Assembly (NCBI RefSeq): GCF_002804065.1 | Contig: NZ_CP024955.1 | Coordinates: 2,914,001 to 2,978,000, forward strand | Direction of reading: 5' to 3' | Source of the DNA: Kyrpidia spormannii | GTDB lineage: Bacteria; Bacillota; Bacilli; Kyrpidiales; Kyrpidiaceae | DNA length: 64,000 nt | Shown: piece after piece, positions 6,132-62,639 of the stretch | Numbering within the stretch: the first letter of the stretch is position 1 | Layout: each line of letters opens with the position of its first letter | Program-made: the position numbers and the translations under genes | The notes under the pieces: model-generated | Databases searched by the model: none | What the model was told of the DNA's origin: nothing | Seen by the model: the letters and a program-made list of their open reading frames with translations, nothing else

Positions 6132-6207
6132 GCGCGCCGGGATATGGAGTTTCTGGACGGCGACCACCGGAACCTGCGCTGGACACTCATTGATGGAGGT
6201 GATGGAG

Positions 6208-6672
6208 ATGCGGGTGGCCATCGGATCCGACCATGCGGGATTTGCCTTAAAGACGTCCATCCATTCGCTGCTCGTCGACGAACTTGGCGTGGAGGTCGTC
6301 GACACGGGCTGCACCGATTGTCAGAATGGAAAATCTGTCGATTACCCGGATTATGCCCTTCCCGTCGCCAGGATGGTGGCCCGGGGAGAAGTGGATCGGG
6401 GGATCCTCATCTGCGGCACGGGCATCGGGATGTCCATCGCCGCCAACAAAATCAAGGGCATCCGGGCCGCCCTGGTGCACGACCTGTTCACCGCCCGGGC
6501 CGCCCGGGAGCACAATGACGCCAACGTCCTCGCCTTGGGCGGCCGACTCATCGGCCCGGACATTGCCCGGGAAATCGTCCGCCTCTTTATCACGACGCCT
6601 TACAGCGGGGGGCGCCACGATCGGCGCTTGGGCAAAATCGCCCAAATCGAGCAGTCCCTCGCATCTCCATAG
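6208..6672 (+). CDS. rpiB: Ribose-5-phosphate isomerase B
   Basis: This RpiB/LacAB-type isomerase of 154 residues interconverts ribose 5-phosphate and ribulose 5-phosphate, a step needed to regenerate RuBisCO substrate. The N-terminal VAIGSDHAGFALK, the central GILICGTGIGMSIAANK with its catalytic Cys, and the ARAAREHNDANVLALGGR segment are family hallmarks. Three ATGs in frame (6193, 6202, 6208) precede the conserved start; GGAGGTGA at 6196-6203 favours 6208. It sits between the displaced nuoM and nuoA with gaps of about 76 bases on each side, so the carbon-fixation and complex I genes share one transcription unit or a very tight array. Confidence 0.95.
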   Translation: MRVAIGSDHAGFALKTSIHSLLVDELGVEVVDTGCTDCQNGKSVDYPDYALPVARMVARGEVDRGILICGTGIGMSIAANKIKGIRAALVHDLFTARAAREHNDANVLALGGRLIGPDIAREIVRLFITTPYSGGRHDRRLGKIAQIEQSLASP

Positions 6673-6749
6673 CCGAGGCCGATCCAGGCGGAGCCCGTCC
6701 CCGGGAATGGAGCCGGGAGGCGCATTTTCCAGCAGAGGAGGATGAGGCG

Positions 6750-7118
6750 ATGTCCCAGTCCTACGTCACCAGCGTGCTTCTCATCGCACTTTTCGTCGCC
6801 ATCGGCGTCGGTCTGCCCATCGTCGCCTTTTCCCTGAGCCGTCTATTGCGACCGCACCACGCCTATCGCGAAAAGGGCGAGACCTACGAAAGCGGCAACC
6901 TCACCGTCGGCACCAGTTGGGTTCGCTTCCACGTGAAATATTATTTGTTCGCCCTCTTGTTCGTGGTGTTCGATGTCGAGACGCTTTTCCTGTATCCCTG
7001 GGCGGTCGCCTATGACGCCCTGGGCACCTTCGCCCTGGCGGAAGTGGGGATCTTTCTCTTTATCTTGGTGTTCGGTTTGTACTACGCATGGCGACAGGAG
7101 GTGCTGGAATGGAAGTGA
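6750..7118 (+). CDS. nuoA: NADH-quinone oxidoreductase subunit A
   Basis: This 122-residue membrane subunit of complex I has three predicted transmembrane segments. The conserved loop [12 protein letters not shown] and the segment [18 protein letters not shown] identify NuoA, which helps close the quinone site at the junction of the membrane and peripheral arms. GAGGAGGATGAGG precedes the ATG. The end overlaps the start of nuoB by ten bases, indicating coupled translation. It is the first gene of the main nuo cluster, which has the order A-B-C-D-H-I-J-K-L-N. Confidence 0.95.
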
Positions 7119-7642
7119 AAGGGTTTCCCCTCGAAGGGGTCGGACAGCTGGAGGAGAAGGAGCTTGAGCGCAACGTCGTGTTGACGACTTTGGAGAAAGT
7201 CAAAGCTTGGGCGCGATCGAATTCCATGTGGCCCCTCACCTTCGGCCTGGCCTGTTGTGCCATCGAGATGATGGCCACCAGCGGGGCCCATTACGATGCG
7301 GACCGTTTCGGCGTCTTCTTTCGTTCTTCGCCCCGGCAGGCCGATCTGATGATCGTCTCCGGCACCGTCACCAAGAAGATGGCACCCCTGCTCCGCAGGC
7401 TGTACGACCAAATGGCCGAGCCGCGCTGGGTGATTGCCATGGGAAGTTGCGCCACGGCGGGCGGTCCTTACGTGCGCTCTTATAGCGTGGTCAACGGGGT
7501 GGACCAAATCGTTCCGGTGGACGTGTACATCCCAGGATGTCCACCCAGCCCAGTCGCTCTCATTTACGGAATTAACAAACTCCAGGAAAAAATTCGTTAC
7601 GAAGCCCGCACGGGAAGGAGCGTGGTCGAGGATGGTCTATGA
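7109..7642 (+). CDS. nuoB: NADH-quinone oxidoreductase subunit B
   Basis: This peripheral-arm subunit of 177 residues carries iron-sulfur cluster N2, the last cluster before quinone. The ligands are visible: the tandem cysteines in LACCAIEMM, the cysteine in [10 protein letters not shown] and the one in PGCPPSP. ACAGGAGGTG at 7094-7103 selects the ATG at 7109 over an in-frame ATG at 7088. The gene overlaps nuoA at its start and nuoC at its end. All four cluster-binding cysteines are present, so the protein should be functional. Confidence 0.96.
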
Positions 7643-47883: not shown

Positions 47884-49905
47884 ATGGAGAACGGCCAACT
47901 GACCTGGATCACGAACTTTATTTGGGGCATCGCCGACGATGTGTTGCGCGATCTGTACGTGCGCGGCAAGTACCGCGATGTCATTCTCCCGATGACCGTT
48001 ATCCGCAGGCTGGATGCGGTGCTGGAGCCCAGCAAGCAGGCGGTGCTTGAAATGAAGGCGTCCCTTGACAAGGCGGGCATCACGCACCAGGACGCCGCCT
48101 TGCGCAGGGCGGCGGGACAGGCATTTTATAACACCTCGCCGTTCACCTTGCGCGACCTCAAGGCGCGTGCCAGCCGCCAGCAACTGGAGGCGGATTTTCG
48201 TGCCTACCTCGATGGCTTCTCGCCAAACGTGCAGGAGATCATCGACAACTTCGAGTTCCGCAATCAGGTCCCTCGCCTGGCAAAAGCCGACGCCCTGGGC
48301 ACCCTGATCGAGAAGTTTCTCGACCCGTCCATCAACCTGAGTCCTTACCCTGTGCTCAACAGCGACGGCACCGTCCGGCTTCCCGGCCTCGACAATCATG
48401 CCATGGGCACCATCTTCGAGGAGCTGGTGCGCCGCTTCAACGAGGAGAACAACGAGGAGGCCGGTGAGCACTGGACGCCGCGCGACGCCGTGAGGCTGAT
48501 GGCCCATCTGGTCTTCGAGCCGATCGCCGACCGGATCGAATCCGGCACGTATCTTCTTTACGACGGCGCCTGCGGCACGGGCGGAATGCTCACGGTGGCC
48601 GAGGAAACCCTCCTGCAACTGGCGAAAGAACGCGGCAAACAGGTCTCGGTGCACCTTTTCGGACAGGAGATCAACGCCGAAACCTACGCCATCTGCAAAG
48701 CCGACCTGCTGATCAAGGGTGAGGGTGACGCCGCCGACAACATCGTCGGCGGGCCGGAGCACTCGACGCTCTCCAACGATGCCTTCCCCGGCCGTGAGTT
48801 CGACTTCATGCTCTCGAACCCGCCATATGGCAAGAGCTGGAAGAGCGACCTAGAGCGCATGGGCGGCAAAGCGGGCATCAAGGATCCGCGATTCGTCGTG
48901 CAGCACCGGGGCGAGGAGCTGTCGCTCATTACCCGCTCGAGCGACGGCCAGATGATGTTCTTGGTGAACATGCTTTCCAAGATGAAGCACGACACCCCGC
49001 TCGGCAGTCGCATCGCCGAGGTGCACAACGGCTCGTCGCTGTTCACGGGGGACGCCGGCCAGGGCGAGAGCAACATCCGCCGCTGGATCATCGAAAACGA
49101 CTGGCTCGAGGCGATCGTCGCCCTGCCGCTGAACATGTTCTACAACACCGGCATCGCCACCTACGTCTGGGTGCTCACGAACAGGAAGCCCGGGCACCGC
49201 AAAGGCCGCGTGCAGCTCATCGATGCCACCCAGTGGTACAAGCCCCTGCGCAAGAACCTGGGCAAGAAGAACTGTGAGCTGTCCGAAGAGGACATCCGTC
49301 GCGTCCTCGACACCTTCCTCAAACTTGAGGAAACCGAGCAGTCCAAGATCTTCCCCAACGCGGCTTTCGGCTACTGGAAGGTGACGGTGGAACGTCCCCT
49401 TCGCCTGAAAGGCATCGACCCCGAGCGCGCCTACACCGCCAAGGAGATCAAGGCGCTTCGGGAAACGGCCGAGCGGGCGGAGGACGCACCGCCGGTGATC
49501 AAAAAGATTCACAAACCCGGCACCGAGCCCGACCCGCTACACGGGCTGTTTGAGGTTGTCATCGGTGGCAAGCCCCGGGTGGTGGAGTATGAACCGGACA
49601 CGGAGCTGCGCGACAGCGAGCAGATCTCGTTCCTCGAGTGCCCGGCATGCCATCAACCGGGCTACTTGCCGAGCCCGGAAGACCAGCGCACGGCCATCGA
49701 GGCCTTCCTGCGGCGCGAAGTCCTGCCCTACGTGCCGGACGCCTGGTACGACCCGGCAAGCGTCAAGGTCGGCTACGAGATCAACTTCAACCGGTACTTC
49801 TACAAGCCAAAGGCTCTGCGCTCGCTGGAAGAAATCCGCACGGATTTGCTGAAATTGCAGGAGGCAAGCAAAGGATTACTACAAGGAATTATTGGAGGTG
49901 AATAA
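47884..49905 (+). CDS. hsdM: Type I restriction-modification methyltransferase subunit
   Basis: This 673-residue adenine methyltransferase subunit has the N-terminal helical HsdM domain (WGIADDVLRDLYVRGKYRDV). The SAM-binding motif is DGACGTGGM near residue 226, and catalytic motif NPPYG is near 312. Its C-terminal extension is longer than average, with a CPACHQPGY cysteine pair, as seen in a subset of HsdM proteins. GGAGGAAATTT precedes the ATG. It opens the four-gene unit hsdM-X-hsdS-hsdR. With HsdS it would methylate adenines in a split recognition site. Confidence 0.95.
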   Translation: MENGQLTWITNFIWGIADDVLRDLYVRGKYRDVILPMTVIRRLDAVLEPSKQAVLEMKASLDKAGITHQDAALRRAAGQAFYNTSPFTLRDLKARASRQQLEADFRAYLDGFSPNVQEIIDNFEFRNQVPRLAKADALGTLIEKFLDPSINLSPYPVLNSDGTVRLPGLDNHAMGTIFEELVRRFNEENNEEAGEHWTPRDAVRLMAHLVFEPIADRIESGTYLLYDGACGTGGMLTVAEETLLQLAKERGKQVSVHLFGQEINAETYAICKADLLIKGEGDAADNIVGGPEHSTLSNDAFPGREFDFMLSNPPYGKSWKSDLERMGGKAGIKDPRFVVQHRGEELSLITRSSDGQMMFLVNMLSKMKHDTPLGSRIAEVHNGSSLFTGDAGQGESNIRRWIIENDWLEAIVALPLNMFYNTGIATYVWVLTNRKPGHRKGRVQLIDATQWYKPLRKNLGKKNCELSEEDIRRVLDTFLKLEETEQSKIFPNAAFGYWKVTVERPLRLKGIDPERAYTAKEIKALRETAERAEDAPPVIKKIHKPGTEPDPLHGLFEVVIGGKPRVVEYEPDTELRDSEQISFLECPACHQPGYLPSPEDQRTAIEAFLRREVLPYVPDAWYDPASVKVGYEINFNRYFYKPKALRSLEEIRTDLLKLQEASKGLLQGIIGGE

Positions 49906-49910
49906 TAGCA

Positions 49911-52214
49911 ATGCTTGAAAAGATCGTTCGAATCAAAAACATTGGTCGTTTTCTGGACTACGCCGCTAAGGGAGACGTAACATTCCGCAAGTTGACGCTT
50001 GTATATGCAGAAAACGGCCGTGGCAAGACAACTCTCTGTGCGATACTTCGCTCCCTGCAAAGCGGCCAGCCCGAGTTCATCTCCGAGCGACAGACCCTGT
50101 GGGCGACGGATGCGCCATTTGTGCACATCCGGCTCAACAATGCCGACTACAAGTTCGACGGCAATGCTTGGACCAACTCACATCCCGACATCCTCATCTT
50201 TGACTCCGTGTTCGTGAATGAGAACGTCTACTCCGGCGACTATGTCGAGCATGAACACAAAAAGAACCTCTACCGCGTCATCGTAGGGGCGCAAGGCGTC
50301 CAGCTCGCCAGGCAGATTGAGGAGCTGGACAGGCAAATCCGAGATTTGAACGCGAATCTACGAGAGAAGAAGGAATCAATCTCCAAGCACGTGCCGTCCG
50401 GTACCGAGTTCGATGACTACCTGGAATGGCAACCTCTCGCTGATATCGAGGCGCAGATACAACAGAAGACTGAGGAGTTGAGCAACAGGCAGCGTGCTGC
50501 CGCGAGAGCTGGCGAGATTCAGGAGAAGCAGCTGTTTGTAAAGGTTCAACTCCCTTCCCTGCCGTCTAACTTCTCTGAGATCCTGTCAAAGCAACTGACG
50601 GATATCGTCATCGATGCCGAAAGGAAGGTACGAGAACAGATTGCACGACACCAGATGGGACATCAAGGCGAGTCCTGGCTGTCCCAAGGCTTGGCCTACG
50701 TCAAAGATGACCGGTGTCCCTTCTGCGGGCAAGGGGTGCAAGCCAACGATTTGATCGCGGCTTATCGCTCGCACTTCAGCGCGGCCTACAGGGGCCTCAA
50801 GCAAGAAGTCGCCCAACTGACCCAGCGGGTGAACAGTGCCATTGGTGAGGCGGCCCTTAGCTCGGTGCAGCAAGCAATCGCCGCCAACGCGGCCCTCGCG
50901 GAGTTCTGGAGGCAGTTCACTGCTGTTGACTTGCCTCATATTTCTTTCTCGGACATACAGCAGAAGTACGCCACACTCCGCGAAAAGTGCCTGAAGCTCG
51001 CCACGAGAAAGCAGGAAAGCCCGACCGAGTCGGTCAAGTTGGACGCGGAATTCACTACGGCCCTCGCGGAAGTGGATGCCCTGCGAACGGCCGTCGTTAA
51101 ATACAACGCGGCCGTGGACGCGGTGAATTCGCGTGTTAACGAGCAGAAGGCTGCCGCGCGCTCACAGCCTGACATCGTAGGGGTTAAGAATGAACTGGCT
51201 CAACTGGAGGCACGAAAAAAGCGGTTTGAGCCGGAGATCGCGAAGGCTTGCCAAGCGTACAAAGATGCAGTCGCGAAGAAGGCATCACTTGATCAGGAGA
51301 AACAGCAGCTCCGCCGACAGCTTGATCAATATTGCGAAAACATTATGCGTACCTACGAGAAGTCTATCAATGAGTACCTTGACCATTTCAACACCGGGTT
51401 CCGCATCACCAATTCGCGTCATCTCTACAAAGGCGGCACACCGAGTTCACACTATCAGATTGAGATCAACAGGAAACCCGTGGACCTCGGCGACGCGCGT
51501 ACTCCTGCCGGAACGCCTTGCTTCAAGACGGCCTTGAGTTCCGGCGACCGGAACGCCTTGGCGCTGGCCTTCTTTCTGGCTGTGCTAAAACAGGAATCGG
51601 ACATTGAGCGGAAAATTGTCGTGTTCGACGATCCGTTTACGAGTCTCGATCGATTCCGCCGAACCTCCACTCAGCAACTCATTCAACGGCTTTTGAAGAT
51701 GGCGCAACAGGTTATCGTCCTTTCGCACGACGCGCATTTCCTGAAGTTGCTCCATGACGAGTGTCCCTCCGCGACTACTAACACCAAGACGCTCCGAATG
51801 AGCAAGACGGGAAATGCCACCGTCATTGGGGAATGGGACATTGAAGCGGAGGTGCTAAGTTCATATGAGAAAGACTATAGGACACTGCACGGGTTTTACG
51901 ATGACAGGACAGGCGACCCGCGCGCAGTTGCTAGAGCCATTAGGCCCTTCCTCGAATGCCTGCTGAGAACCCGTTTTCCTGGACACTTTCAACCGAACGA
52001 GTGGCTTGGTGATTTTATTACCAAAATACGAGCGGCTGATGAGGCAAGCGGTTTGCAACTAGCCAGAGCCGATCTCAGCGAACTGGAAGCGATAAACGAC
52101 TACTCCAAGAAGTACCACCATCAGCAGAATCCAAATGCCGACATAGAACCGATAAACGAGGACGAATTGCATGCCTATGTAAAGCGGACACTTAGGTTAG
52201 TCGGCGGTGAGTGA
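49911..52214 (+). CDS. Zinc-hook ABC-type ATPase, RloC/PrrC-like (putative anticodon nuclease)
   Basis: This 767-residue protein has an SMC/Rad50-like layout. Walker A is AENGRGKTT (33-41). A coiled coil is interrupted by a zinc hook CPFC (269-272). A second coiled coil runs to about 480. Then come the signature LSSGDRNAL (542-550), Walker B VVFDDP (570-575) and the H-loop His606. The C-terminal 130 residues carry Arg678-x3-Glu682 and His736/His737, reminiscent of the Arg-Glu-His triad of PrrC/RloC anticodon nucleases, although the Glu-His distance is longer than in those. It lies between hsdM and hsdS. PrrC and RloC are known to be linked to type I restriction genes. The family call is reasonable; tRNA cleavage is inference. 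Confidence 0.75.
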   Translation: MLEKIVRIKNIGRFLDYAAKGDVTFRKLTLVYAENGRGKTTLCAILRSLQSGQPEFISERQTLWATDAPFVHIRLNNADYKFDGNAWTNSHPDILIFDSVFVNENVYSGDYVEHEHKKNLYRVIVGAQGVQLARQIEELDRQIRDLNANLREKKESISKHVPSGTEFDDYLEWQPLADIEAQIQQKTEELSNRQRAAARAGEIQEKQLFVKVQLPSLPSNFSEILSKQLTDIVIDAERKVREQIARHQMGHQGESWLSQGLAYVKDDRCPFCGQGVQANDLIAAYRSHFSAAYRGLKQEVAQLTQRVNSAIGEAALSSVQQAIAANAALAEFWRQFTAVDLPHISFSDIQQKYATLREKCLKLATRKQESPTESVKLDAEFTTALAEVDALRTAVVKYNAAVDAVNSRVNEQKAAARSQPDIVGVKNELAQLEARKKRFEPEIAKACQAYKDAVAKKASLDQEKQQLRRQLDQYCENIMRTYEKSINEYLDHFNTGFRITNSRHLYKGGTPSSHYQIEINRKPVDLGDARTPAGTPCFKTALSSGDRNALALAFFLAVLKQESDIERKIVVFDDPFTSLDRFRRTSTQQLIQRLLKMAQQVIVLSHDAHFLKLLHDECPSATTNTKTLRMSKTGNATVIGEWDIEAEVLSSYEKDYRTLHGFYDDRTGDPRAVARAIRPFLECLLRTRFPGHFQPNEWLGDFITKIRAADEASGLQLARADLSELEAINDYSKKYHHQQNPNADIEPINEDELHAYVKRTLRLVGGE

Positions 52215-52225
52215 GAGCTGAAAAA

Positions 52226-53701
52226 ATGACGGAAAATTATATGTCTCGAATGACCGATATCCTCAAACCCTACCCCGCCTACAAAGACTCAGGCGTGGAA
52301 TGGCTCGGCCAGGTGCCGGAGCATTGGGAGGTGTTGCCCGGGCGTGCGGTGTTTCGTGAAATCAATGACCGTGGTCACCCTGACGAACAAATGCTGTCGG
52401 TAACCATCACACGCGGCGTACTGCGTCAAGCAGACTTGCTCGCAAACAGCTCCAAGAAAGACTCCTCGAACGAGGACAAGTCCAACTACAAACTCGTTCA
52501 ACCGGGTGACCTGGTGTACAACAAGATGCGAGCCTGGCAGGGGGCGGTGGGTGTCTCGGCTTACCGGGGGATCGTGAGCCCGGCTTACATCGTCCAGCGG
52601 CTAAGAAGCGTCGAGAACTTGCCCCGCTACATGCACTTTCTTCTTCGCACACCACTTTTCGCTTCGGAGGCCGAGCGATGGTCGTATGGCATTACTTCGG
52701 ATCAGTGGAGTCTGCGGGCAGAGGAATTCAAGTGCATCTACTTCTCACTTCCTCCCCTCCCCGAACAAACCGCCATCGTGCGGTTTCTGGAGTGGGCGGA
52801 GCGGAAGATCCGGCGGGTGATCCGGGCGCGACAGCGGCGAATTAATCTGCTGGAGGAGTACAAGCAGGCCCTCATCCACCAGGCCGTTACGGGCCAGATC
52901 GACGTCCGCACGGGACAGCCCTACCCGGCCTACAAGGACTCCGGCGTGGAATGGCTGGGAAAGGTGCCGGCGCATTGGGAGTTGCGGAAATTGAGGGCCT
53001 TGTTCACTAAAGCAGGAAGTGGGACCACACCTTCAGGAGAAGAGTTTTACGGGAGCGACATCCCGTGGGTCGTCACTGGCGATTTAAATGACTCAGTCCT
53101 TACGAACACTACGCGTGCAGTCAATGCGAGAGCACTAGAAACCTTCTCTGCACTTCGTCTATATCCAAAAGATTCTTTGATAGTCGCAATGTATGGAGCG
53201 ACCATAGGCAAAACAGCAATCCTCGGGATTGAGGCTTGTACCAATCAAGCATGTTGTGTGTTAGCTGAACCACGTAGGGGTGTGCTAGTTCGCTTTATAC
53301 AATCAGCGGTCATTGCTGCTAAAGGGTATCTTGTCCGGCAAGGATATGGTGGAGGACAACCCAACATAAATTCCGAAATCGTTCATAGTCTGCGAATACC
53401 TGTGCCGCCATATAGGGAACAAACCGCCATCGCCGAATACCTCGATGCCCAGTCGGCCAAGATCGACGCGGCCATCTCCGCCGCCCGCCGCGAAATCGAA
53501 CTGTTGCACGAATACCTCGAGCGCTTGATTGTCGATGTAGTCACCGGCAAAGTGGATGTGCGCGAGGTCGCTGCGCGGCTGCCGGAGGAACCGCCCGAGG
53601 AGGAGTCCGAGTGGGGGGACACGGAAGACATGGCCGAAGCTGAAACGGCAGATGATGATGCCGCCGCAGAAGCTCTCGCGGAGGAGGAAGTTGAAATATG
53701 A
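52226..53701 (+). CDS. hsdS: Type I restriction-modification specificity subunit
   Basis: This protein of about 491 residues has two target-recognition domains, each introduced by the same segment: KDSGVEWLGQVPEHWEV and KDSGVEWLGKVPAHWEL, 651 bases apart. Each half ends in a conserved helix (LPEQTAIVRFLEWAERKI and YREQTAIAEYLDAQSAKI). It determines the DNA sequence bound by the whole complex. The C-terminal 40 residues are strongly acidic (EEPPEEESEWGDTEDMAEAE), which is unusual. The ATG at 52226 or GTG at 52211 may be the start. The stop overlaps the hsdR start (ATGA). Confidence 0.94.
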   Translation: MTENYMSRMTDILKPYPAYKDSGVEWLGQVPEHWEVLPGRAVFREINDRGHPDEQMLSVTITRGVLRQADLLANSSKKDSSNEDKSNYKLVQPGDLVYNKMRAWQGAVGVSAYRGIVSPAYIVQRLRSVENLPRYMHFLLRTPLFASEAERWSYGITSDQWSLRAEEFKCIYFSLPPLPEQTAIVRFLEWAERKIRRVIRARQRRINLLEEYKQALIHQAVTGQIDVRTGQPYPAYKDSGVEWLGKVPAHWELRKLRALFTKAGSGTTPSGEEFYGSDIPWVVTGDLNDSVLTNTTRAVNARALETFSALRLYPKDSLIVAMYGATIGKTAILGIEACTNQACCVLAEPRRGVLVRFIQSAVIAAKGYLVRQGYGGGQPNINSEIVHSLRIPVPPYREQTAIAEYLDAQSAKIDAAISAARREIELLHEYLERLIVDVVTGKVDVREVAARLPEEPPEEESEWGDTEDMAEAETADDDAAAEALAEEEVEI

Positions 53702-56700
53702 AACCCACCGATACCAGTGAAGCCGGGCTTGAAACGTTGATCTGCCGGGCGCTGGCGGGCAGTGACTGCACGCCCCGGCCGGCCGGCACTCCGGCGGTCG
53801 TCGCCGAAACGCCGGCGGCCTACGCCGGGCTGGGTTGGCTCCCCGGCGACCCGGCCGACTACGACCGGGAGTACTGCGTCGATCTGGTTCAGCTCGCAGC
53901 CTTTCTGCGCTCGACCCAGCCCGAAGTGGCCGAAGCGCTCGATCTGGATCACGACAGCCCCACCCGGCGGAAGTTTCTGGCGCGCCTTCAGGGCGAGGTG
54001 AGCAAGCGCGGGGTGGTGGACGTGCTGAGAGGCGGCATCCAGCACGGGCCGCACCGCATCGAGCTTTTCTACGGCACGCCTTCGCCCGGCAACGAGGTGG
54101 CGCGGGCGCTCTATGAGCAGAACCGCTTTACCGTCACGCGCCAGCTCCGCTACAGCCGCGACGAGATGCAGCGGGCGCTGGACCTGGTGCTTTTTATCAA
54201 CGGCCTGCCGGTTTTCACCTTCGAGCTCAAAAACCGGCTGACCAAGCAGACGGTCCATGACGCCATCGAACAGTACAGGCGCGACCGCAACCCGCGCGAG
54301 AAACTGTTTGAGCTGGGCCGCTGCGTGGCACATTTTGCGGTGGACGACAACGAGGTGTGGTTCTGCACGCACCTTGCGGGCAAGGCGTCGTGGTTTCTGC
54401 CTTTCAACAAAGGCTACAACGACGGCGCGGGCAATCCGCCCAACCCGCAGGGGCTCAAAACCGATTACCTCTGGCGGGAGGTCCTCACCCGGGAGAGCCT
54501 GACCGACATCCTCGAAAACTACGCGCAACTCGTCGAGGAGAAGGACCCAAAAAGCGGGAGGAAGTCGCGCAAGCAGATTTTCCCCCGTTATCACCAGCTC
54601 GACGTGGTGCGCAAGCTGCTCGCAGATGCCCGGAAACATGGCGCAGGGCGGCGGTATCTCATCCAGCATTCGGCCGGCAGCGGCAAGTCGAACTCCATCG
54701 CCTGGCTGGCCCACCAGTTGATCGGTCTCGCGAGGGATGGCAGGCCTATTTTCGATTCCATTATCGTGGTGACCGACCGGCGCATCCTGGACCAGCAGAT
54801 CCGGGACACGGTCAAGCAGTTTGCCCAGGTGAGCGCTACGGTGGGGCACGCCGAACATTCCGGCGATCTGCGGCGCTTCATCGAGGGCGGCAAAAAAATC
54901 ATCATCACGACGCTGCAGAAGTTCCCGTTCATCCTCGACGAAATCGGAGGCGAGCACCGCGGGCGCCATTTTGCCATCATCATCGACGAGGCGCATTCGG
55001 GGCAGGGGGGCCGTACCTCGGCCAAAATGAGCATGGCTTTGTCGGAAGCCGGTGCGGAGGATGAAGAGGAAACCTTCGAGGACCGGATCAACCGGCTCAT
55101 GGAGACCCGGAAGCTTTTGCCGAACGCCAGCTATTTCGCCTTCACCGCCACCCCGAAAAATAAGACGCTCGAGATGTTCGGTGAACCCGACCCGCAGCCC
55201 GACGGCACGGTCAAACACCGGCCGTTTCATAGCTACACCATGAAACAGGCCATTCAGGAAGGGTTCATCCTGGATGTGCTGGCCCACTATACACCGGTCA
55301 ACAGCTACTACAAGCTCATCAAGAAAATTGAGGACGACCCGGAATTCGACGTCAAAAAGGCGCAGAAGAAGCTGCGCCGCTTCGTCGAGGGGCACGAGCA
55401 CGCCATTCGGCTCAAGTCCGAGATCATGGTGGACCATTTTCACGAGCAGGTGATTGCCAAAGGCAAGATCGGCGGCCGGGCGCGGGCCATGGTGGTGACC
55501 GGCAGCATCGAGCGGGCCATCCAGTATTTCCATGCTTTTAAGGCGTACCTTGCCGAGCGCAAAAGCCCTTATCGGGCGATTGTGGCCTTCTCGGGGGAGC
55601 ACGAGTATGGCGGACAACAGGTCACCGAGGCCAGCCTCAACGGCTTTCCCTCGAACCAGATCGCCGACAAGATCCGGGAGGACCCGTATCGGTTTTTGAT
55701 CTGCGCCGACAAATTCCAGACCGGCTACGACGAGCCGCTATTGCATACGATGTACGTGGACAAGGTGCTCTCCGGGGTCAAGGCCGTGCAGACACTTTCG
55801 CGCCTCAACCGCGCCCACCCGCAGAAGCATGATACCTTCGTCCTCGATTTTGTCAACGACCCGGAGGCGATCCAAAAGGCCTTCGAGCCCTACTACCGGA
55901 CGACCATCCTCGCGGACGAGACCGACCCGAACAAGCTGCACGACCTCAAGGCCGACCTGGACGGGTACCAGGTGTACGCGCCCGAAGAGGTGGATGAACT
56001 GGTACGACTGTACCTGGACGGCGCCGACCGCGACCGTCTCGACCCGATCCTTGACGCCTGTGTGACCACCTACATAGAGCACCTCGACGAAGACGGTCAG
56101 GTCGACTTCAAAGGCAAGGCCAAAGCGTTTCTTCGAACGTATAATTTTCTGTCTTCAATCCTCCCCTACACCAACGCCGAGTGGGAGAAGCTATCGATTT
56201 TCCTCAACTTCCTGGTGCCCAAATTGCCGGCGCCAAAAGAGGAGGACCTTTCGAAGGGCATCCTCGAGGCGATCGACATGGACAGCTACCGGGTCGAGAA
56301 ACAGGCGACCATGAGGATCGCGCTTGCCGATGCGGATGCCGAGATCGAACCGCTGCCCACGGTGGGCGGGGGACATAAACCCGAACCGGAGCTCGACCGT
56401 CTCTCGAACATCATCAAGGCTTTTAACGATCAGTTCGGCAACATCCCCTGGACCGACGCCGATCGGGTGCGCAAACTCATCACCGAGGAGATTCCGGCAC
56501 GTGTGGCGGCCGACGCCGCTTACCAGAACGCACGCAAATATTCCGACAAACAGAACGCGCGCATCGAGCACGACAAGGCGCTCGGTCGCGTCATGATCGC
56601 GCTGCTGCAGGATGACACCGAACTCTTTAAACAGTTCAGCGACAACGAAGGCTTCCGGCGCTGGCTAACGGATACGGTGTTCGCACTGACCTACGGCGAA

Positions 56701-56718
56701 CCTGGCAGCGCGAGGTAG
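53698..56718 (+). CDS. hsdR: Type I restriction enzyme R subunit (nuclease-translocase)
   Basis: This 1006-residue subunit cuts unmethylated DNA after ATP-driven translocation. The N-terminal nuclease domain has LPVFTFELKN (Glu-x-Lys) near residue 170. The motor has HSAGSGKSNSIAWLA near residue 323, the DEAH-type IIDEAHSGQGG near 429, and ICADKFQTGYDEPLLHTMYV with motif VI residues in the second RecA fold. The C-terminal helical domain is complete. It is translationally coupled to hsdS. No internal stop or shift is present, so the system looks functional. Confidence 0.95.
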   Translation: MKPTDTSEAGLETLICRALAGSDCTPRPAGTPAVVAETPAAYAGLGWLPGDPADYDREYCVDLVQLAAFLRSTQPEVAEALDLDHDSPTRRKFLARLQGEVSKRGVVDVLRGGIQHGPHRIELFYGTPSPGNEVARALYEQNRFTVTRQLRYSRDEMQRALDLVLFINGLPVFTFELKNRLTKQTVHDAIEQYRRDRNPREKLFELGRCVAHFAVDDNEVWFCTHLAGKASWFLPFNKGYNDGAGNPPNPQGLKTDYLWREVLTRESLTDILENYAQLVEEKDPKSGRKSRKQIFPRYHQLDVVRKLLADARKHGAGRRYLIQHSAGSGKSNSIAWLAHQLIGLARDGRPIFDSIIVVTDRRILDQQIRDTVKQFAQVSATVGHAEHSGDLRRFIEGGKKIIITTLQKFPFILDEIGGEHRGRHFAIIIDEAHSGQGGRTSAKMSMALSEAGAEDEEETFEDRINRLMETRKLLPNASYFAFTATPKNKTLEMFGEPDPQPDGTVKHRPFHSYTMKQAIQEGFILDVLAHYTPVNSYYKLIKKIEDDPEFDVKKAQKKLRRFVEGHEHAIRLKSEIMVDHFHEQVIAKGKIGGRARAMVVTGSIERAIQYFHAFKAYLAERKSPYRAIVAFSGEHEYGGQQVTEASLNGFPSNQIADKIREDPYRFLICADKFQTGYDEPLLHTMYVDKVLSGVKAVQTLSRLNRAHPQKHDTFVLDFVNDPEAIQKAFEPYYRTTILADETDPNKLHDLKADLDGYQVYAPEEVDELVRLYLDGADRDRLDPILDACVTTYIEHLDEDGQVDFKGKAKAFLRTYNFLSSILPYTNAEWEKLSIFLNFLVPKLPAPKEEDLSKGILEAIDMDSYRVEKQATMRIALADADAEIEPLPTVGGGHKPEPELDRLSNIIKAFNDQFGNIPWTDADRVRKLITEEIPARVAADAAYQNARKYSDKQNARIEHDKALGRVMIALLQDDTELFKQFSDNEGFRRWLTDTVFALTYGEPGSAR

Positions 56719-57823: not shown

Positions 57824-60689
57824 AGAATCCCGGACAACGGGTCTATCTCGCCTGTGGAAGCACCGACTTGCGCAAGTCCATCGACGGGCTCGCTGTGCTG
57901 GTCAAAGAGCAGTTCGAACTGGACCCGTTTTCGCCGTGTCTTTTCGCGTTTTGCAGTGCGACTTGAAAGTCGTCGAGATTCATGTGGTGCGAATCCACCC
58001 GTCCAGAACTGCGGACGCGAACCTACCGTGACGTGGGGCAGTGGTAACGCAGCCTTGCGAGAGCTCACGGGACAATGTAGCCGCGCCAGATAGAGTGAAT
58101 TCGGGCCGGAGCCAGGTTGCGAAGTGCATGGTGAACATCCGTGAACCCTCTATAAACCGCGTCAGCGAAGACAAGCGAAACACTCTGATACGCTTGAGCC
58201 AAAAGGCATGTAGCCGGAATCGGCACTTGCAAATTGCCGATTCGCAGTTCCGAGTGCTACCGCGGGATTCAGGGCACCTAAACACTTCAGAGATGGGGTC
58301 TCGACGGAACAAGGTAAGCCCCATGGGGTCTGTCCGAAACGAGACAGTAAGCGGAACGTAAGTTACGCCGAACTCCTCAGGGGGTAGAGGAATGGGCAAA
58401 AAGCGAAGGCTGTCTTGTAATGAGACAGATAGGGGCGGCAGAAAGGCCGAGATACCCCGACGCGAAAGCGTGCAGACTTGCCCAAGGTCATCCAGCCGGG
58501 AATCCTGTAGCATGAGACGAAAGGGGTGGTCTGTTATGAACCGAAAAGCCGTCCCAAAAGACGAGTCAACAGGCCACACTCGTAAGAATCCCAGAGAAAT
58601 CCACGAAGACCCTATCATGCGCGCATGGTTGGAAGCCCAAACGGCCGAGACCCGTCCACATGATATGGACCAGTGGACAGGATGGAAGGATATCGAACGT
58701 CACGTCCTCAGGTTGCAGCGACAACTGGCTCACGCAGTCGAAAATGGCAATCGTAAAGCAGTGCGCCACTACAAGTGGCTCATTCGGACCAGCCACCACG
58801 TCAAACTTCTGGCCATTCGGCACGTGACGCAAGAAAACCGGGGACGGCGCACCCCAGGAGTCGATGGAAAAATTTACACGACGCCAAGGCAGCGCCGTAA
58901 ACTCTGCAGGCTTGTGAATCTACATCGTCGTCCTGATCCGGTTCGGCGGGTGTACATCCGTAAGAAGAATGGCAAGCTCCGACCTTTGGGAATTCCCACC
59001 ATGCACGACCGGGTGTGTCAGGCCATCCACAAGATGGCCATGGAACCTGAGTGGGATATTCAATTTGCGCCCAATACGTACGGATTCCGACCACAGCGGT
59101 CGACATGGGACGCGATCGGACAAGTTTATACCATCCTTTGTCGCTCTAACTCCCCCCAATGGGTCATCGAAGGGGATATTCGTGGGTATTTTGACAACGT
59201 CGACCACGAGAAACTGCTGGCTAAGCTCGCTCCAGAAGACCGCGTGTTCGTTCGGCGCATGTTGAAAGCCCCCGTCTTTGATCCGGAACATGGGCTTGTT
59301 CCAAGCATCAGGGGTACGCCCCAAGGGGGTCTGTTATCCCCCTTACTGGCGGTTATTGCGTTACAAGGGATGGAGAACGAGTTGCGGGAAAAGGCGTTGC
59401 AAATGAAATTTGGAAGAGACCGCACGAGTCCCGGCATTCACATCGTCAACTATGCGGACGACTTCATCGTCACGTGCAAAACCAAGGAGCAGGCCGAACA
59501 GTTTGTACCGGTCATCGCCCAGTGGCTTGCGGAGAATGTCGGGGTTGAACTCAGCCTGGAGAAGACCCACATCACACACATCGATGACGGGTTTGACTTT
59601 CTGGGATTTAACGTCCGAAAGTACCGCGGGACGCTATTGATTAAACCCGCCAAGGCCAATGTGCTAGCCTTTTTGCGGAAAATCAAAAGCATCCTGGACG
59701 CGAACAAGTCGGCCAAGCCATCTACGGTCATCCGGTTGCTGAATCCCTTGATCCGGGGATGGGGCAACTACTACAGCACCCAGGTGAGTAAGGAAATCTT
59801 TAACTACTGCGACCACAGGATTCACTGGATGCTCTGGAGATGGGCGAAACGACGACATCCGGGGAAAGGAGCCCGGTGGATTCACCGGAGGTACTTCCCT
59901 CGGCGTGGAAATCGCAAGGGGGTATTCGCGGACGGCCCACTCACGCTCGCCATCATGAGCGACATTCGCATCATCCGGCACGTGAAGATACAGGGACGAC
60001 GTTCGCCTTATCGCCCAAGCGACCAGGAGTATTTTGAAGCAAGACGAGAACATCTGCTCCTGAAACGGTTGAACGGCATGCAGAAGGCAGTGGTGCGCAA
60101 AACCCACGGACGGTGTGCACTCTGTGGATGTCCCATTTCTACGGAACACTTCCGACGCTGGCAGGTCGACGGAGACAATCCTATCCTGTTCGTTCGGATG
60201 ATTCCCGAGCGACTCGGAGGCCGCAATACGATTGCAAATGTCGTCGTTACGCACCGATGGTGCTATAACAGGTACCGATCCGTTTATAACCATGATCCCC
60301 TTCCCGACCAGCTAGAACGCTATCTTTCCAATCAGGAAAGTCTGATCGACGGACGTGTGGTGTGGGATCGTGAACGACGATGAAACTGCAGGATGGCTTG
60401 AGCCGTGTGACGGGAAACTGTCATGCACGGTTCTTAGGGGAGGAGGTGGCCGCAAGGCCACCGACTTACCCGACATCGCAAACGGGATAAACTCAAAATC
60501 CTCCAGTGGGACCACAATGGGTTCTGGCTCCATTACCGGCGCTTGGAACGGGGCACCTTTCAGTGGCCCGACGAGAATCCGTCGGAAACCCTGAAAATCA
60601 ACCGCCGGCAGTTGCAGTGGCTGCTCGACGGGCTTTCCCTGAATCAGAGCCAAGCCCATCGGGAGGTGACGGCGCGCACCGTCCTGTAA
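57817..60689 (+). CDS. tnpB: IS66 accessory protein TnpB, split by a group II intron
   Basis: Exon 1 is 57817-57955 and exon 2 is 60475-60689. Exon 1 begins with GTG inside the end of tnpA and reads YLACGSTDLRKSIDGLAVLV up to LFAFC. Joining the exons restores the family sequence FCNRKRDKLKILQWDHNGFW, then LERGTFQWP and a normal C-terminus. The spliced product has 117 residues, the usual IS66 TnpB length. Without splicing the frame stops three codons after the junction. TnpB is required for IS66 transposition but has no known enzyme activity. Confidence 0.85.
58536..60383 (+). CDS. ltrA: Group II intron reverse transcriptase/maturase with HNH domain
   Basis: This intron-encoded protein of about 615 residues has reverse-transcriptase blocks RPLGIPTMHDRVCQ, FRPQRSTWDAI, GDIRGYFDNVDH, GTPQGGLLSPLLA and the catalytic NYADDF (near residue 305). 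Domain X (maturase) lies around LNPLIRGWGNYY. A C-terminal HNH endonuclease has CALCGCP and later THRWCYNRY. It helps the intron RNA to splice and inserts it into new sites by target-primed reverse transcription. I chose the ATG at 58536; the open frame extends back to 58392 but that part is intron RNA structure. Confidence 0.93.
   Translation: MNRKAVPKDESTGHTRKNPREIHEDPIMRAWLEAQTAETRPHDMDQWTGWKDIERHVLRLQRQLAHAVENGNRKAVRHYKWLIRTSHHVKLLAIRHVTQENRGRRTPGVDGKIYTTPRQRRKLCRLVNLHRRPDPVRRVYIRKKNGKLRPLGIPTMHDRVCQAIHKMAMEPEWDIQFAPNTYGFRPQRSTWDAIGQVYTILCRSNSPQWVIEGDIRGYFDNVDHEKLLAKLAPEDRVFVRRMLKAPVFDPEHGLVPSIRGTPQGGLLSPLLAVIALQGMENELREKALQMKFGRDRTSPGIHIVNYADDFIVTCKTKEQAEQFVPVIAQWLAENVGVELSLEKTHITHIDDGFDFLGFNVRKYRGTLLIKPAKANVLAFLRKIKSILDANKSAKPSTVIRLLNPLIRGWGNYYSTQVSKEIFNYCDHRIHWMLWRWAKRRHPGKGARWIHRRYFPRRGNRKGVFADGPLTLAIMSDIRIIRHVKIQGRRSPYRPSDQEYFEARREHLLLKRLNGMQKAVVRKTHGRCALCGCPISTEHFRRWQVDGDNPILFVRMIPERLGGRNTIANVVVTHRWCYNRYRSVYNHDPLPDQLERYLSNQESLIDGRVVWDRERR
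60400..60433 (+). ncRNA. Group II intron domain V
   Basis: A 34-base hairpin GAGCCGTG..., inner stem TGACGG-GAAA-CTGTCA and closing GCACGGTTC has the catalytic AGC triad near its 5' side, a GAAA tetraloop and a two-base bulge. This is the diagnostic catalytic domain. Domain VI follows up to 60474. Confidence 0.9.
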
Positions 60690-60761
60690 GCCTCCAAACT
60701 TCTTTTCCTGTCGTGGTGGGATGTGGCAGGAAAAGAAGCGTTTGTGCCGAAATCAATAGGT

Positions 60762-62345
60762 ATGAACAACATCGTGGTTGCTGCGGAGACAATCGAATCC
60801 CTTGAGAAAAGAATCCAGCGCCTGGAACAGGAAAATGCCGAGTTGGCGGCCAAGGTGGCCTGGTATGAGGAGCAGTTTCGCCTGAGTCAACGCCGCCGGT
60901 TTGCCGCCTCCAGCGAGCGCTCCAAGACGACCTCCGAGCAGTTGGAACTGTTTAACGAGGCCGAAGTGGAGGCACAGACGCCTCCACCGGAGCCGACGGT
61001 GGAAACAGTGACGGTGCGCCGGGTGAAAAAGCCGGGTCAGCGGGAAGAGAAGCTGAAGGAGCTGCCGGTGGAACGGATCGAGCACCGCCTGGCCGAAGAG
61101 GAACAGGTTTGCCCGCAGTGTGGGGATGCGCTCCACGAGATGAGCACCGAGGTTCGGCGGGAACTCAAGATCATCCCGGCGCAGGTGAAAGTGGTGGAGC
61201 ACGTGCGGCAGTTGTACTCCTGCCGCCGTTGCGAACGCGAAGAGATCCAGACCCCGATTGTCAAGGCCCCCATGCCGAAGCCGGTCCAACCGGGAAGTCT
61301 GGCCTCCCCCTCGGCGGTAGCCTACGTGATGACGCAAAAATACGTCGAGGGGATGCCGCTGTACCGGCAGGAGCAACAGTTTGAACGCCAGGGTCTTGCC
61401 CTCTCGCGGCAAACCCTGGCGAATTGGATCGTGTACAGCGCGGAGCATTGGCTGGAGCCCTTGTACGAGCGGATGCACCGGGAGCTTTTGAACCAAGACA
61501 TCCTGCATGCGGACGAGACCACGCTGCAGGTGTTGCGGGAGCCGGGGCGGGCGGCAGAGACGACGTCGTACCTGTGGCTGTACCGCACCGGACGCTACAG
61601 TCCGCCCATCGTCCTGTATGAGTACCAGAGGACTCGGGCGGCGGAACATCCGAAGGCGTTTCTGAACGGGTTTAAAGGGTACCTGCATGTGGACGGGTAT
61701 GCGGGGTACAACGGACTGGCGGACGTGACCTTGGTGGGGTGCTGGGCGCACGCCAGGAGGAAATTTGACGAGGCACTCAAATCCCTGCCGGCCTCGAAGC
61801 GTTCGGCGCCGGTGGCCGCCAAGGAAGGCTTGGCCTATTGCAACCGGCTGTTTGCGATCGAGCGAGACCTGAAAGATCTCACGCCGGAGGAGCGGTACCG
61901 CCGCCGCTTGGAGTTGAGCCGTCCGGTGTTGGATGAGTTTTTGGCGTGGCTGGTGGAGCAAAAGGAACACGCCCTGCCCAAAAGCGCCTTTGGCCAAGCC
62001 ATTCAGTACTGCTTGGGACAGTGGGGGAAGTTGGAGGCGTTTTTGAAAGACGGGCGGTTGGAGATCGACAACAACCGGAGCGAGCGATCGATCAAGCCCT
62101 TTGTGATTGGTCGAAAAAACTGGTTATTCGCGAACACCCCGAAAGGGGCGAAGGCGAGCGCGACGGTGTACAGCATCGTGGAGACCGCCAAGGAAAACGG
62201 GCTGAATCCCTACGAATATCTTCGGTACCTGTTTGAGCGGTTGCCCAACGTGGACGTCAACGATACCAGTGTCTTGGATAGACTGTTACCGTGGTCGCCC
62301 GAGCTGCCGGAGTCTGTCCGCCGTCGGCCATCCGGGGGCACGTAA
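60762..62345 (+). CDS. tnpC: IS66 transposase TnpC
   Basis: This transposase of about 527 residues has the N-terminal coiled region [20 protein letters not shown], the basic linker, the zinc-binding CPQCG...CRRC, and the DDE catalytic domain with [25 protein letters not shown] and the Glu in [14 protein letters not shown]. The C-terminal IS66 tail ([14 protein letters not shown]) is complete. An upstream GTG at 60723 could add 13 residues, but [12 protein letters not shown] looks like the natural start. With TnpA and TnpB it would move the element. Confidence 0.92.
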
Positions 62346-62442: not shown

Positions 62443-62639
62443 TTTCCATTAACGATGCGGCAGGATTCACTTCATGTTACGGCCTGCAGTTTCGCTTCAC
62501 CCATCGGGGCTTTTCGCAGGGCTTCATCCTTAGGCTCTCACCACCAGATGCCTGCTAGCTACGAGGCGGTCTGGCCCCTATCTCGGCCGGACTTGCACCG
62601 GCAAGTTGTGCCTAGCTTTGCTAGGCGCGCTGTGGGGGA

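Follow-up and report, generated by a model that had tools for sequence, protein, structure and literature searches.

RloC, described in Geobacillus kaustophilus and Acinetobacter baylyi, is a zinc-responsive tRNase that excises the wobble nucleotide. The 2008 report on this family defined its C-terminal motif as Arg-X3-Glu-X36-52-His, with a Ser frequently preceding the His, and found that the G. kaustophilus protein needs Arg692, Glu696 and His737 to cleave tRNA (PMC2610378). At that time RloC was uncommon in restriction-modification (R-M) loci (8 of 72), and RloC inserts within the type I loci of Campylobacter were already described (PMC2610378). Cleavage of the tRNA anticodon by RloC is activated by linear DNA and restrained by zinc. 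Assayed RloCs are ATPases that free a tRNase in response to DNA ends, and the hook-bearing one of A. baylyi still responds to DNA breaks when the R-M genes of its host are mutated (PMC3874168). PrrC, encoded in the EcoprrI locus, is silenced by its linked type I enzyme and freed by an anti-restriction factor, after which it cleaves tRNA (PMC12707154). That defence operons can harbour further defence genes has also been published, as 'guilt by embedding', in work cited in PMC12255303.

Here we analyse a gene, called X, located within a type I restriction operon of Kyrpidia spormannii. The window, by which we mean the whole stretch of 64,000 nucleotides that was analysed, comes from a single-contig genome of 3.35 Mb, where nothing but X itself matches X or Pfam AAA_13; in the phage genomes searched, X had no match. 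X occupies positions 49911-52214 (+), starting with ATG and reading through 767 codons with no stop inside. It is preceded by hsdM (47884-49905, +; 673 aa), a type I DNA methyltransferase gene (N6_Mtase 4.4e-51, HsdM_N 6.5e-23; PADLOC MTase_I 6.5e-242), and followed by the specificity subunit gene hsdS (52211-53701, +; 496 aa from a GTG, inner ATG starts being possible; Methylase_S 6e-24) and the restriction subunit gene hsdR (53698-56718, +; 1006 aa; HSDR_N 5.8e-20, SWI2_SNF2 2.9e-27). The order hsdM-X-hsdS-hsdR given in the preliminary description of this DNA is thus intact, with Pfam and PADLOC identifying the neighbours as the M, S and R subunits of a type I enzyme. Since only 5 nt separate hsdM from X, and both the X-hsdS and the hsdS-hsdR junctions are 4-nt overlaps, the four genes look like one coupled operon. 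Just 3' of hsdR the window carries a group II intron (57998-60474) with intron RNA domains and a reverse transcriptase (58392-60383), followed by an IS66 transposase gene (60723-62345) and, beyond it, by a second stretch of group II intron RNA (D1D4-4; 62472-62604, -).

In its general plan X resembles RloC, having an ABC head interrupted by a coiled coil that carries a CxxC hook, a C-terminal Arg-x3-Glu followed by a late His, a length (767 aa) within the published range of 658-897 aa, and a position inside a type I locus, where RloC is found at times. The Walker A motif, AENGRGKTT (residues 33-41; 50007-50033, +), has N35, G38, K39 and T41 invariant in 15 relatives, as is the whole of the hook motif CPFC (residues 269-272; 50715-50726, +), a putative zinc site. 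The ABC signature LSSGD (residues 542-546) and the Walker B/D-loop FDDP..SLD (residues 572-580), which together span 51534-51650 (+), were located in an alignment of 30 sequences in which S543, G545, D573, D574, P575, S578 and D580 are invariant, and the switch His is His606. Walker A, signature, Walker B/D-loop and His606 frame the insert that bears CPFC; in the structural model this motif is flanked on both sides by long helices, and the hook insert splits the head.

The putative catalytic residues of the C-terminal domain are R678-x3-E682 (51942-51956, +) and, after 53 and 54 further residues, respectively, H736 and H737 (52116-52121, +). R678, E682, H736, H737, C269, P270, F271 and C272 are all invariant in 15 full-length relatives, with identities to X of 24-76%. 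Given this invariance and the strength of the AAA_13 match (E=1.2e-53), the motifs of X are not due to chance, and the zinc hook, complete ABC motifs and Arg-x3-Glu plus late His listed in the preliminary description are all present. When the C-terminal domains of X and of sequences 17-74% identical to it were aligned (21 in all), no residue of the domain other than R678, E682 and H737 was invariant. They are still invariant in 30 sequences once classic RloCs are added, and align with the RloC catalytic triad; classic RloC here denotes sequences with the published motif, the assayed GkaRloC and AbaRloC themselves being outside the alignments. We prefer H737 over H736 as the counterpart of the RloC catalytic His, because two relatives keep H737 but not H736, which is Tyr in L049 and Met in L051.

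AlphaFold2 modelled the whole of X with a mean pLDDT of 87 and a pTM of 0.57, and the isolated C-terminal domain, which is chiefly helical, with a pLDDT of 88. A fold search with the whole model returned Rad50 and SMC heads, and the sequence of X matched, among solved structures, only Rad50-like and other ABC heads. X has an ATPase head, coiled coil and hook in common with Rad50 and SbcC. The best matches would suit a structural or DNA-repair ATPase with no nuclease activity of its own. However, neither Rad50 nor SbcC has the additional C-terminal domain (PMC2610378) that in X is conserved and in its relatives carries the invariant RloC triad, and both work with a partner nuclease, Mre11/SbcD, a family for which Pfam found no match among the four genes of the operon. 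We regard this reading as highly improbable. The C-terminal domain had no Pfam match when searched alone, fold searches of its model against PDB and BFVD gave nothing significant, solved nucleases included, and the C-terminal profiles of both branches described below found nothing among solved homologues. In view of these fold searches, the nuclease identity of X rests on its sequence, and a HEPN fold for the domain is not claimed from structure.

The family itself is already known, as RloC and, in PADLOC, as PDC-S06. By its AAA_13 match X belongs to the PrrC/RloC superfamily. Its best PADLOC match is PDC-S06 (PDLC04895; 4.6e-87), a candidate class whose match covers residues 1-694 and omits the last 70 residues, including the His, and whose name, in the literature consulted, is given only as a list entry. 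PrrC is matched as well (8.5e-9), and shares with X the ABC ATPase, the triad and a gene within a type I operon; but PrrC, at 341-416 aa against 767 aa, is roughly half as long, has no hook or coiled coil where X carries CPFC, and has a Glu-His distance of 31, and the place of X between hsdM and hsdS also sets it apart. The ATPases of Septu, PARIS and Lamassu, considered as possible identities, gave weaker PADLOC matches or none.

Two lines of comparison define the relation of X to classic RloC. The C-terminal profile of the branch containing X and that of classic RloC match in a profile-profile comparison with P=3.4e-6, a score that 40 column-shuffled controls and a reversed profile all fell far below. 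Among 83 AAA_13 proteins placed in a tree, the sequences of His-His (HH) type, which have HH at the catalytic position as X does, group together (35 tips, local support 0.80) and separately from the Ser-His (SH) group of classic RloC, and CxxC is present in all of the HH proteins surveyed (33/33). Taking triad conservation, profile homology and tree grouping together, X is a protein of the RloC type that belongs to a separate branch. The preliminary description had called X RloC-like and possibly a new branch, and the domain order and the triad, both in common with RloC, the profile homology and the separation of HH from SH bear it out.

The same 83-protein survey places the Glu-His distance of X among those of its relatives. 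Fifty-four residues separate Glu and His in 21 of 33 HH proteins and 37 in 16 of 28 SH proteins, and a third AAA_13 group has mostly X48-52; the published value for the G. kaustophilus RloC is X40. The long spacing is a property of the HH branch, only two residues past the published range. The earlier remark that the distance in X is longer than in known PrrC and RloC was correct as to the number, but X54 exceeds the published X36-52 only marginally; the accompanying suggestion of a different effector is not sustained, because published RloCs already span X36-52, and because the spacing is a branch-specific length around one unchanged triad. A related possibility is that X is a nuclease of the same build acting on an RNA other than tRNA, or at another site. 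This would explain the branch-specific HH and the spacing near 54, and is compatible with a C-terminal domain that is distantly similar to classic RloC and has no fold match. Against it, the triad is the sole invariant feature of that domain and is unchanged, and other groups also vary in spacing while keeping the triad; we consider such a shift of substrate decidedly unlikely. Members of the third group (about 860-900 aa; loci L084, L093-L096, L098, L100, L102, L106, L109, L110, L114, L119, L124 and L126) keep Arg...Glu and have the His preceded by Glu, Ala or Gly.

HsdM relatives 90-95% identical to that of the window were found in other genomes of the same phylum, and blastn against their operons delimited a cargo slot at 49852-52257. 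Homology ends at 49851 (at 49839 in some), inside the end of hsdM, and returns at 52258-52268, inside hsdS. In the sister operons this slot is occupied by a classic RloC, alongside a near-identical HsdM (L168), by Ppl (L157), by PD-Lambda-3 B (L158), by SIR2 with HerA (L160 and L161, which L162 resembles by gene sizes alone), by GmrSD plus PDC-M23 (L159) or by PDC-M23 (L163). GmrSD also occupies the slot of a Meiothermus plasmid operon (L177) and of a more distant operon (L165), and nothing fills it in L166 and L167, both more distant as well. Every occupant identified other than X is a defence gene, known or candidate. At its C-terminal end (~18 residues, LKLQEASKGLLQGIIGGE; 49852-49905) the HsdM of the window is unlike those of the sisters, which resemble one another (DLLAVEKEAEGLL-type end), and this hsdM tail may have arrived together with X. 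The third-position GC is 0.65 in X and 0.62 in hsdS, compared to 0.83 in hsdM and 0.81 in hsdR. From the slot contents of the sisters, the homology breaks, the HsdM tail and the third-position GC, X looks like exchanged cargo.

A scar lies between stacked modules in the hsdM-hsdS interval, twice in L159 (G132:C23) and once in L163 (G049:C33). In it, 30-37 nt from the head of hsdS are followed by about 26-33 nt and then by 100-123 nt of hsdM tail beginning at the equivalent of window position 49740. These scars suggest that cargo is exchanged through recombination between operons.

The preliminary description had cast X as the guard of its type I enzyme. In such an arrangement, known from PrrC (PMC12707154), X would be silenced by its own HsdMRS and freed when a phage anti-restriction protein disturbs the enzyme, and would then cut tRNA. 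The location of X inside a coupled type I operon fits this, as does L052, in which a relative lies between hsdS and hsdR (order hsdM'-hsdS-X-hsdR). However, relatives with 67% (L002) and 72% (L003) identity to X, the closest ones whose surroundings could be read, have HmaA on one side and HmaB-HmaC on the other, within Hma, an unrelated kind of defence system, the reading frame of the second being broken in that metagenome contig; for many relatives no restriction gene was found in the annotated flanks; unlike defence genes occupy the same slot in sister operons; and a hook-bearing RloC responds to breaks in R-M mutants (PMC3874168). Other relatives of X adjoin PaeR7I or BsuBI/PstI type II systems, one lies 3' of a type I operon (L038), and those of L053, L051 and L066 immediately follow a ResIII protein or have a DNA methylase nearby. 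That the relatives move among Hma systems and restriction systems of types I and II is as expected of an autonomous module, and the genomic context argues for X being independent of its neighbours. A PrrC-like guard role is therefore less favoured than an autonomous module, and we think it unlikely, although some regulatory link of X to its operon may exist, since so few RloCs were found in R-M loci in 2008. At L002, a 492-aa DUF4062/HATPase_c_4 protein (6145-7623, +), with no PADLOC match at 1e-20, is encoded between HmaA and the X relative. The gene following the X relative at L001, considered as a candidate HmaB, is not HmaB.

In our judgement X is probably a ribonuclease of the RloC type, gated by DNA, which the type I restriction operon carries as cargo and which acts autonomously as a second line of defence. 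What was observed directly for X is its gene order, its motifs, the conserved triad, the homology to RloC and the exchange of cargo in its slot; its silencing, DNA-end trigger, tRNA substrate and phage protection would be those of the characterised RloCs. Having the same head, hook and triad as the assayed RloCs, X most likely acts alike. The Rad50-like ABC head and the zinc-hook coiled coil would form a dimer that is silent in healthy cells. As infection proceeds, the head would be engaged by DNA ends, such as those that restriction or a phage attacking the host genome creates, and ATP hydrolysis would then free the C-terminal R678/E682/H737 nuclease. The freed nuclease would cut tRNA in the anticodon loop, halting translation and so blocking phage production. 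Points that speak against this proposal are the lack of a significant fold match to a solved nuclease, the His in place of the usual Ser, and the spacing two residues past the published range.

To our knowledge, the HH branch had not been delineated before, nor had a single slot been described in which HH-RloC and classic RloC are exchanged, and we know of no HH member that has been assayed. The RloC family would gain a coherent branch with a distinct, putative His-His active-site motif and a nearly fixed spacing. A bolder proposal, which we advance with more doubt than confidence, is that the HH branch constitutes a separate class of RloC-like tRNase and that the type I operons of this lineage serve as an exchange platform. 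Here the interval from hsdM tail to hsdS head would be a standard cassette site for swapping suicide effectors and further modules of defence (HH-RloC, classic RloC, SIR2-HerA, Ppl, GmrSD and PDC-M23) by recombination, leaving scars where modules are stacked. The near-identical restriction operons that differ in the defence module of one slot, classic RloC and HH-RloC included, provide a natural comparison, with which the long-standing question of whether an RloC acts under the restriction enzyme or autonomously becomes directly testable. The closest plasmid relative of the operon (L177, Meiothermus taiwanensis pMtWR-220) has a second cargo slot, between hsdS and hsdR, which contains a DUF4433 (DarT-like) protein, a macro-domain protein, an AAA ATPase and a DUF4276 protein.
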